From positions 5,208,001-5,272,000 of the forward strand of contig NZ_OY970459.1 of NCBI RefSeq assembly GCF_963853665.1: DNA of 64,000 nt. Direction: 5' to 3'. The notes beneath the pieces are model-generated. The model ran no database searches. It was not told the DNA's origin and saw only the letters and a program-made list of their open reading frames with translations. The position numbers and the translations under genes are program-made. The DNA is from Mycobacterium decipiens (GTDB lineage: Bacteria > Actinomycetota > Actinomycetes > Mycobacteriales > Mycobacteriaceae). How positions within the stretch are numbered: the stretch's first letter is position 1; the number at the start of each line of letters is the position of its first letter. Of this stretch, positions 10,305 through 13,661 are shown piece after piece.

Positions 10305-10465
10305 GTCCCGCCCACCGGGTGCCCGGGGATCGCCCCTAGGGTCGTTGTTGCGGCGCGCGCGGTCATGGAGCAGGGTTGACCTGTCAAGCTAGCGCCAGCC
10401 CGTCGCGTGGGAGCACCCACGCGAAAGACGCGTCGGACGATCATTTCATCGAAGGAAGGAATGCC

Positions 10466-11089
10466 GTGGCCGAATACACATTGCCGGACCTGGACTGGGA
10501 CTACGGAGCACTGGAACCGCACATCTCGGGTCAGATCAACGAGCTGCACCACAGCAAGCACCACGCGACCTACGTCAAGGGTGCCAATGACGCCGTCGCC
10601 AAACTCGAAGAGGCACGCGCCAAGGACGACCATTCGGCGATTTTGCTGAATGAGAAGAATCTGGCGTTCAACCTAAGTGGTCACGTCAATCACACCATTT
10701 GGTGGAAGAACCTGTCGCCCAACGGTGGTGACAAGCCGACCGGCGAACTCGCCGCGGCCATCGACGACGCGTTCGGATCCTTTGACAAGTTCCGTGCGCA
10801 GTTCCACGCCGCCGCTACCACCGTGCAAGGATCGGGATGGGCGGCACTCGGCTGGGACACACTCGGCAACAAGCTGCTGATATTCCAGGTTTACGACCAC
10901 CAGACGAACTTCCCGCTGGGTATCGTTCCGCTGCTGCTGCTCGACATGTGGGAGCACGCCTTCTACCTGCAGTACAAGAACGTCAAGGTCGACTTCGCCA
11001 AAGCGTTCTGGAATGTCGTGAACTGGGCCGATGTGCAGTCACGGTATGCGGCAGCGACCTCGCAGACCAAGGGTTTGATATTCGGCTGA
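10466..11089 (+). CDS. sodA: Superoxide dismutase [Fe] SodA
   Basis: 207-residue Fe superoxide dismutase; dismutates superoxide to peroxide and oxygen. The GTG at 10466 is the start because GGAAGGA lies just upstream and it gives [19 protein letters not shown], the known mycobacterial N-terminus; upstream in-frame codons are not protein-like. Metal ligands H28 ([10 protein letters not shown]), H76 (GHVNHTIWW), D160 and H164 (LDMWEHAFY) are all present. There is no classical signal peptide; in M. tuberculosis export depends on SecA2. Confidence 0.98.
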
Positions 11090-11842: not shown

Positions 11843-11944
11843 GGAAATTCGAACGAATTAGTTCGGGCGGCGAATCGCAAAATTCGGGTGCCCGAAGTTC
11901 TCCGACGCCCTAGTGCGCATCAAATACGCCCGCTAACCTGGGGA

Positions 11945-12060
11945 CGTTAGCGAAGGGGAGTAGCCCCGAATCGTCGAGTCGACATACTGGCGAAAGCCCG
12001 GCCGGCGAACCGCCTTTCCGACGGTGGGCGAGACCTTCGACCGATGTTCGATGACCCAAT
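11945..12060 (+). promoter_or_regulatory. yybP-ykoY manganese riboswitch
   Basis: The leader has the signature pieces of the yybP-ykoY (Mn2+) riboswitch in order. GGGGAGTAGC is at 11955-11964, GACATACT at 11981-11988, and GGCGAGACCTT at 12027-12037. P1 is closed by CGAAGG (11951-11956) pairing with CCTTCG (12034-12039). The 3' strand of P1 (GACCTTCGA, 12032-12040) is also complementary, with one bulge, to TCGAAAGGTC (12077-12086). That segment contains the AAAGG ribosome site of the downstream gene. Mn binding should hold P1 together and free the ribosome site, giving an ON switch. The family identification is from memory of the consensus. Confidence 0.85.
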
Positions 12061-12093
12061 GGGCGTCGACAACGCGTCGAAAGGTCGCCTGCC

Positions 12094-13262: not shown

Positions 13263-13661
13263 ATGAGCACGACGTTCGCTGCCCGCCTGAACCGCCTGTT
13301 CGACACGGTTTATCCGCCCGGACGCGGGCCGCACACCTCCGCGGAGGTGATCGCGGCGCTCAAGGCGGAGGGCATCACGATGTCGGCTCCCTACCTATCG
13401 CAGCTACGCTCCGGAAACCGCACGAACCCGTCGGCGGCGACCATGGCCGCCTTGGCCAACTTCTTCCGCATCAAGGCGGCCTACTTCACCGACGACGAGT
13501 ACTACGAGAAGCTCGACAAGGAACTGCAGTGGCTGGCCACAATGCGCGACGACGGTGTGCGCCGGATCGCGCAGCGGGCCCACGGGTTGCCTGCCCACGC
13601 GCAGCAGAAGCTCTTGGACCGGGTCGACGAGCTGCGCAGCGCGGAAGGGCTCGACGCTTAA
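13263..13661 (+). CDS. espR: EspR, nucleoid-associated regulator of ESX-1
   Basis: 132-residue DNA-binding protein almost identical to M. tuberculosis EspR. An N-terminal winged or XRE-like helix-turn-helix covers about residues 1-75 (TSAEVIAALKAEGITMSAPYLSQLRSGNRTNPS) and a C-terminal dimerisation helix pair follows (DDGVRRIAQRAHGLPAHAQQKLLDRVDELR). The ATG at 13263 is preceded by GGTGGAGGT and gives MSTTFAARLNRLFDTVYPPG. EspR in M. tuberculosis binds the espACD promoter and acts globally; its targets include ESX-1-linked genes such as those at the far end of this window. Confidence 0.97.
   Translation: MSTTFAARLNRLFDTVYPPGRGPHTSAEVIAALKAEGITMSAPYLSQLRSGNRTNPSAATMAALANFFRIKAAYFTDDEYYEKLDKELQWLATMRDDGVRRIAQRAHGLPAHAQQKLLDRVDELRSAEGLDA

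Follow-up and report, generated by a model that had tools for sequence, protein, structure and literature searches.

The leader of a GDT1-family gene in Mycobacterium decipiens is very likely (a probability of roughly 0.8 by our own estimate) a Mn2+-sensing riboswitch from an actinobacterial branch that has diverged within the yybP-ykoY class, equipped with a translational ON platform, and the exporter is probably turned on by a freed ribosome-binding site at high manganese. The yybP-ykoY class and its P1-based mechanism are already known; the element described here is a diverged, uncatalogued branch of that known class. A preliminary description of the same DNA had proposed a manganese riboswitch with such a platform, and the motifs, covarying helices, metal-site residues, gene association, and mutually exclusive pairings laid out below fit that proposal. 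Throughout, the window denotes the entire stretch of 64,000 nucleotides that was analysed, and coordinates (Table 1) are positions within it.

Genomic setting of the leader

The genome carrying the leader measures 5.30 Mb and consists of one contig. On the plus strand of the window, sodA is followed by a 214-aa ORF for which Pfam returned no match, the leader, the GDT1 gene, a helix-turn-helix (HTH) ORF, a DUF6474 ORF, and RraA. The HTH ORF is presumably EspR, a name that we take from the gene order of M. tuberculosis. In the latter organism, the end of rv3848 lies directly upstream of espR (PMC3315491), and the ribosome-protected small ORF MAB_4957 of M. abscessus is described as homologous to the Rv3847–Rv3848 region (PMC4974804), possibly a trace of expression.

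That the downstream gene is of the GDT1 type, as originally proposed, is borne out by the ORF opening at ATG 12094, the product of which reaches 140.9 bits against PF01169 (cut-off 27) over two stretches that represent the two repeats and so belongs to the family; in a comparison by sequence with solved structures it found no match. Its predicted function, export of Mn2+, is drawn from the other UPF0016 exporters tabulated in PMC9936198.

The spacing between the −10 box and P1 implies that the transcript should start a few bases before P1, at about 11945–11947 in the window. An intrinsic terminator was looked for on the plus strand of the leader and none was found. On the minus strand, a terminator-like hairpin (window 11929–11954) overlaps the −10 box of the leader and the P1 5′ strand.

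Table 1. The leader and neighbouring genes, by position in the 64,000-nucleotide window
Feature	Position	Strand	Evidence or remark
sodA	10442–11089	+	Sod domains (Pfam)
−10 promoter box TAACCT	11934–11939	+	TANNNT 16–19 nt upstream of P1 in 78/79 unique upstream regions
P1 5′ strand CGAAGG (anti-anti-SD)	11951–11956	+	Pairs with 12034–12039
L1 5′ side GGAGTA	11957–11962	+	Invariant in 75 mycobacterial rows and 43/43 phylum rows
P1.2 5′ strand GCCC	11963–11966	+	Pairs with GGGC 12026–12029; two-sided changes in 4/4 pairs (phylum alignment)
Outer P3 arm TCGTC	11971–11975	+	Pairs with GGCGA 12004–12008; alignment consensus
P3.1 5′ strand GTCG	11978–11981	+	Pairs with CGGC 11999–12002; alignment consensus
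L3 ACATACT	11982–11988	+	Same letters as X. oryzae L3; A11984 invariant (75/75)
P3.2 5′ strand GGC	11989–11991	+	Pairs with GCC 11996–11998; alignment consensus
P4 hairpin, variable length (ACCGCC..GACGGT)	12009–12025	+	Two-sided changes in 3/6 pairs (genus) and 6/6 (phylum)
P1.2 3′ strand GGGC and L1 3′ side GAGA (12030–12033)	12026–12033	+	GAGA in 40/43 and AAGA in 3 phylum rows
Shared strand CCTTCGAC	12034–12041	+	12034–12039, P1 3′ strand; whole, anti-Shine-Dalgarno strand
Linker hairpin, anti-SD to SD strand	12044–12073	+	CG/GC/AU/UA pair types vary; 58–70 of 78 standard per pair
GTCGAAAGG, copy of P1 5′ strand	12076–12084	+	Holds Shine-Dalgarno AAAGG 12080–12084, ending 9 nt before ATG
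SD-to-start spacer GCCTGCC	12087–12093	+	Can lengthen OFF stem with GGTGGGC 12023–12029 (MFE of window leader)
GDT1-family (UPF0016) divalent cation/proton antiporter, predicted Mn2+ exporter, 230 aa	12094–12786	+	PF01169, E 1.7e-41
HTH ORF	13263–13661	+	Weak HTH_3 match (Pfam)

Architecture and covariation of the aptamer

The conserved motifs GGGGAGTAGC (11955–11964), GACATACT (11981–11988), and GGCGAGACC (12027–12035) stand in the order in which they were first reported. The pairing of P1 also holds, with corrected limits: P1 proper comprises CGAAGG 11951–11956 and CCTTCG 12034–12039, and the GA of GACC, previously counted into the helix, falls within loop L1 when the aptamer is folded.

Within the genus, alignment A1 assembles 75 of 79 unique aptamers; the four omitted (L046, L049, L051, and L066), which carry a long P3.2 insert, score 95.7–100.1 bits with R1, the covariance model derived from A1. 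Its consensus consists of P1 (CGAAGG/CCUUCG), L1 (GGAGUA/GAGA), P1.2, a P3 arm with L3 (ACAUACU), and P4. While 98.3% of the cells pair and two-sided changes occur in three P4 pairs, P1 is invariant across all 75 rows and therefore draws no covariation support from the genus, and two of the five measures lie within the range of shuffled alignments (pairs changed on both sides, 347/500; further pair types, 296/500).

Across the phylum, alignment A2 collects 43 matches from 44 hand-chosen sources, fitted to R1 and hence favouring the structure; 96.0% of its cells pair, and two-sided changes are found in 23 of 28 pairs, at least two in each of the six helices, including four of the six P1 pairs. 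The covariation score of 0.513 compares with 0.054–0.126 for slid alignments and a shuffled mean of 0.181, and none of 500 shuffles reaches any of the five measures, so that helices P1.1, P1.2, P3.1, P3.2, and P4 all covary. P1 takes the forms CGAAGG/CCUUCG (25 rows), UGAAGG/CCUUCG (4), CGGAGG/CCUCCG (3), and CGAAAG/CUUUCG (2), with CAAAGG/CCUUUG and UAAAGG/CCUUUA among the rarer ones. Loop L1 reads GGAGUA in 43/43 rows, facing GAGA in 40/43, and L3 has A as its third letter in 38/43, with the remaining five either gapped or divergent; in 8/43 rows L3 is ACACACU, not ACAUACU. 

The P2 hairpin of the four-way junction was sought in the group A consensus and is absent, leaving a three-way junction; since a three-way-junction aptamer has been reported for a Streptococcus member of the class (PMC9495176), P2 is taken as optional. 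In loci L194–L197, a P2-like hairpin is discernible by eye, and the scanned downstream ORFs of L194 and L196 are Na/Ca exchangers.

The metal site can be compared with the structure of the X. oryzae RNA, in which Mn2+ is bound via N7 of A48 in L3 (ACA48UACU), L1 adopts a sarcin–ricin-like motif that docks on P3.1 through its A10, and P1.1 is stabilised by Mn2+ binding (PMC6754395). L1 of the leader corresponds to this sarcin–ricin-like loop, and L3 in the window consists of the same seven letters, with A11984 in the place of the Mn2+-discriminating A48. The unchanged metal-site loop L1 (43/43), covariation of one and the same fold phylum-wide, and shared gene families make it scarcely credible that this is a conserved hairpin of GDT1 leaders without ligand control whose motif match arose by convergence, an account that could appeal to the lack of an RF00080 call.

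Detection by covariance models

A search with the Rfam model of the class, RF00080, which the preliminary description had suggested as a check, was not significant, an outcome that the same description had listed among those that would refute it. At the gathering score of 45 bits there is no match in the window, and none over the whole genome at E 0.001; with relaxed filters, a 361-nt segment yields 12.5 bits at an E-value of 0.19, the 3′ half being placed on a different helix. Assignment to RF00080 by score is rejected because the score falls below the cut-off, a figure that marks a detection limit and not a biological feature. In 296 Actinomycetota genomes, RF00080 matches 10, one above the cut-off and none in this genus or family. 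We attribute this miss to the Rfam model, which in our reading passes over the actinobacterial branch.

R1, trained on the 75 mycobacterial leaders of A1, scores 110.9 bits on the window, itself one of the training sequences. The alx leader of E. coli is also recovered by R1, with 28.9 bits and an E-value of 7.5e-5. The mntP leader was discounted as a reciprocal match, its 21.3 bits being close to those of an unrelated minus-strand match at L070 (21.4 bits). Among 11 actinobacterial loci found with RF00080, R1 reaches only three at E ≤0.01 (L114, L120, and L111), which indicates that there is little overlap between what the two models detect. L111, which RF00080 places above its cut-off, has the same aptamer core upstream of an ORF with a GDT1 motif recognizable by eye, and its P1 3′ strand GACCUUUGGC likewise re-pairs with a downstream mimic, one containing GCCAAAGGUC; unlike that of the mycobacterial leader, the L111 mimic runs into a stretch of U residues and looks like a transcription terminator rather than a Shine-Dalgarno sequence.

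A proposed switching platform at the ribosome-binding site

The complementarity between a P1 3′ strand, GACCTTCGA (12032–12040), and the ribosome site, TCGAAAGGTC (12077–12086), was located correctly from the outset. In all 78 aligned platforms (78 of 81 unique ones, three with short linkers having been left out), the P1 3′ strand CCUUCGAC can pair instead with the GUCG-A-AAGG that holds the ribosome site, and in 78/78 each of the eight pairs formed with GTCG(A)AAGG is a standard one. Pairing between GACCUUCGACC and the segment with the ribosome site amounts to −15.2 kcal/mol. When both strands of the 64 kb, to which this estimate of chance pairing applies, were scanned in overlapping windows of 18 nt, 34 of 42,656 matched or beat this value; two of the 34 are the site itself. 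GTCGA[AG]AGG occurs within 90 nt downstream of P1 in 96/96 group A leaders, with the first ATG, GTG, or TTG 5–13 nt behind it (9 nt in 62/96). Neither the AC that follows P1 nor the GUC that precedes the Shine-Dalgarno sequence plays an obvious part in P1 or in binding the ribosome; that both are conserved therefore speaks for the alternative helix. Where the linker hairpin is gone (L024, L031, and L034), the alternative helix is longer, joining GACCUUCGACC to GGUCGAAAGGUC.

Folding the 82 unique leaders without ligand favours the alternative state: the anti-SD helix has a probability above 0.5 in 79, and P1 one below 0.5 in 82/82 (mean 0.00). When P1 is enforced, AAAGG is unpaired to a mean of 0.64 instead of 0.23; the gain exceeds 0.4 in only 55/82 leaders, and in L003, L004, and L007 the Shine-Dalgarno sequence remains largely paired. 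The mean cost of enforcing P1 is 10.1 kcal/mol, and a lead of this size for the OFF form disfavours switching at equilibrium. Shuffling the downstream part lowers this cost to 0.7–4.5 kcal/mol; for 23 chosen leaders the real cost stands at a mean z of 3.9 relative to shuffles, and for the window at z 2.6, with 3/60 shuffles reaching it. The contrast is weak for L042 (21/60), L026 and L059 (11/60 each), and L027 (6/60), and the gap between OFF stem and P1 is small in L026 (1.9 kcal/mol) and L042 (2.9 kcal/mol). The OFF stem of the window also takes in the P1.2 3′ strand and the spacer to the start codon, and its leader as a whole folds more stably than shuffles (z −2.21), 6/200 of which are equally good.

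The ON-switch reading of the preliminary description is thus supported with a qualification: given an OFF hairpin about 10 kcal/mol more stable, the switch would be decided during transcription, not at equilibrium. In the proposed sequence of events, transcription would begin a few bases before P1, and the aptamer would fold first, forming P1, L1, P1.2, P3 with L3, and P4 around a three-way junction devoid of P2. At high Mn2+, an ion would be held between L1 (GGAGUA/GAGA) and L3 (ACAUACU, via A11984), the two legs would dock, and P1 would be locked, such that the Shine-Dalgarno AAAGG, made some 40 nt later, would stay free and the exporter would be translated; for this kinetic, co-transcriptional decision, Mn2+ must lock P1 ahead of the synthesis of the Shine-Dalgarno sequence. 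At low Mn2+, P1 would be weak, and GUCGA-AAGG, the copy of its 5′ strand, would capture the 3′ strand CCUUCGAC, producing a long hairpin up to the start codon that would conceal the ribosome site.

The same Mn2+ aptamer might instead exert its main output through Rho- or processing-dependent loss of the transcript, translational control being only the trigger, which we consider unlikely. There is a mycobacterial precedent in the M. tuberculosis pe20 Mbox, where a translational platform and Rho-dependent termination operate together (PMC12810186), and both the lack of an intrinsic terminator on the plus strand of the leader and the location of the group B P1 mimic, by eye well upstream of the start codon, speak for it. 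Against it, the mimic contains the Shine-Dalgarno sequence, with the start 5–13 nt behind, in 96 group A leaders including that of the window, and a mimic that holds this sequence so close to the start argues for translation as the step directly controlled.

The platform is not identical everywhere. In GDT1 group B (about 45% identical; 20 chosen loci, L164–L183), the mimic lies tens of bases upstream of a GUG start, a position judged by eye and measured for L164 and L178. In other Actinomycetota, inspection by eye places the mimic inside the Shine-Dalgarno sequence in L145, L150, L152, L157, L158, and L193, and ahead of a terminator-like U run in L111, L147, L155, and L160. Compared with shuffled downstream sequence, 29 of 31 loci tried were measurable, 10 of which have a mimic that 0/200 shuffles equal; in L138, L153, L156, L157, L159, L162, and L163 it is no better than chance.

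Distribution in the genus and the phylum

R1 matches 153 of 198 genomes of the genus, and GDT1 relatives are present in 154. The two sets of genomes differ: for example, G016 encodes the protein but has no R1 match, and the reverse is true of G045, G087, and G098. In the wider phylum, 35 of 296 actinobacterial genomes are matched by R1, five of the 35 from this genus.

Named relatives of the GDT1 protein, the best 80 of 100 being kept, comprise 69 Mycobacteriaceae loci (L001–L069) and 11 from Williamsia and Gordonia. Among these best 80, the leader pattern CGAAGGGGAGTAG..G[CT]GAGACCTTCG is intact in 67/69 Mycobacteriaceae loci, at two of which (L006 and L039) the tblastn match starts within the leader. 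The exceptions, L020 with a short leader devoid of an aptamer and L041 with a decayed leader, both lack GTCG before the Shine-Dalgarno sequence. In L020, from a Mycobacterium metagenome-assembled genome, the short leader that takes the place of the aptamer retains GGGGATTAGCCCC and the Shine-Dalgarno sequence. The motif GGGGAGTAG was not found upstream of the GDT1 gene in the 11 Williamsia and Gordonia loci. Further loci of the genus (L082–L110) show the pattern in 28/29; L087, whose GACC is short of one C, is still matched by R1 (95.9 bits), and in some loci L3 contains CACACT rather than CATACT.

Nine genomes whose group B GDT1 gene lies elsewhere (L184–L192) possess an aptamer-like copy upstream of an espR-like gene. 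A GDT1 match is absent from this locus, L1 and L3 are altered, P1 and the copy within the Shine-Dalgarno sequence are retained, and R1 scores range from 49.9 to 81.2 bits. ORFs of 74–87 aa behind the nine copies were rejected as coding, for differences are about equally frequent at all three codon positions (0.409, 0.365, and 0.420). A far-reaching conception, in which mycobacteria harbour an uncatalogued Mn2+ riboswitch family built on a contest of three strands (P1 5′, P1 3′, and the Shine-Dalgarno copy) and these nine copies, with GDT1 lost, the switching strands kept, and the L1/L3 core rebuilt, are descendant riboswitches with a changed signal and not relics, strikes us as a long shot. 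Separately, in two reduced genomes of 3.3 Mb (G075 and G115; loci L198 and L199), the GDT1 match is interrupted or fragmentary and the aptamer decayed (62.5 and 46.7 bits).

Partner genes and the identity of the signal

At 25 phylum loci outside the genus, the genes downstream encode GDT1 (13), TerC (4), P-type ATPases (4), Na/Ca exchangers (2), and others (2). Partners of the Mn-exporter type accordingly stand at 23/25 of these loci, as GDT1 does in the window, the two remaining being SAICAR synthetase (L155) and peptidase M48 (L160). Downstream ORFs were chosen by a script that takes a GDT1-type motif within 500 nt or else the longest ORF, and for L145 and L147 the choice was corrected by means of ORF lists; in L147, the P-type ATPase gene sits behind a 61-aa zinc-ribbon ORF. 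R1 matches within the genus also precede genes for TerC (L193) and Na/Ca exchangers (L194 and L196). The matches at L160 and L155 score 35.7 and 45.8 bits, and terminator-like mimics precede their peptidase M48 and SAICAR synthetase genes.

The partner genes bear on the ligand. A yybP-ykoY-like switch could in principle answer to another signal (pH, Ca2+, or another transition metal) in place of Mn2+: full activation of E. coli mntP also needs alkaline pH (PMC9603457), the Streptococcus member also binds Ca2+ (PMC9495176), P-type ATPases and Na/Ca exchangers figure among the phylum partners, and ACACACU replaces ACAUACU in 8/43 phylum rows. We deem this very improbable in view of an L1 unchanged in 43/43 rows and an L3 discriminator A kept in 38/43, of window L3 letters equal to those of a structurally solved Mn2+ aptamer, and of GDT1 as the commonest partner gene (13/25). 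Mn2+ is thus the ligand that we infer.

Relation to known riboswitches

With the yybP-ykoY RNAs of the RF00080 family, which include the mntP and alx leaders of E. coli and the aptamers of X. oryzae and L. lactis, the leader shares L1 (GGAGUA/GAGA), the L3 discriminator A, the order of P1, P1.2, P3, and P4, a P1 3′ strand as the switching strand, and downstream genes of the Mn-exporter type. It departs from that family in being missed by its model, in its GC-rich stems, in the three-way junction without P2 of group A, and in a P1 3′ strand that pairs with a Shine-Dalgarno sequence copying the P1 5′ strand. It resembles the M. tuberculosis pe20 Mbox, likewise a metal-sensing leader from a mycobacterium in which an anti-SD platform acts on translation; the Mbox is Mg2+-type and of a different aptamer class, and the "Mn2+-type" Mbox of the same paper is also a different RNA (PMC12810186).

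A description of the element in mycobacteria is absent from the open-licence PMC matches listed. In Corynebacterium, two yybP-ykoY leaders have been matched to Rfam (PMC4046766), and a 2013 survey, the available text of which does not specify if yybP-ykoY is included, counted RNA motifs in Mycobacteriaceae (PMC3766115). The available text of a survey of Mn2+ riboswitches names 14 bacteria, no Mycobacterium among them (PMC9495176).

Surveys that depend on catalogue models can conclude that this riboswitch is absent from mycobacteria. If our interpretation is correct, the Rfam family would be extendable in Actinomycetota at once, and the GDT1 gene between sodA and espR would become a named candidate for a Mn2+ exporter. 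The copy of P1 within the Shine-Dalgarno sequence renders the mechanism directly testable, and many mycobacteria would exert direct RNA control over Mn2+ export.
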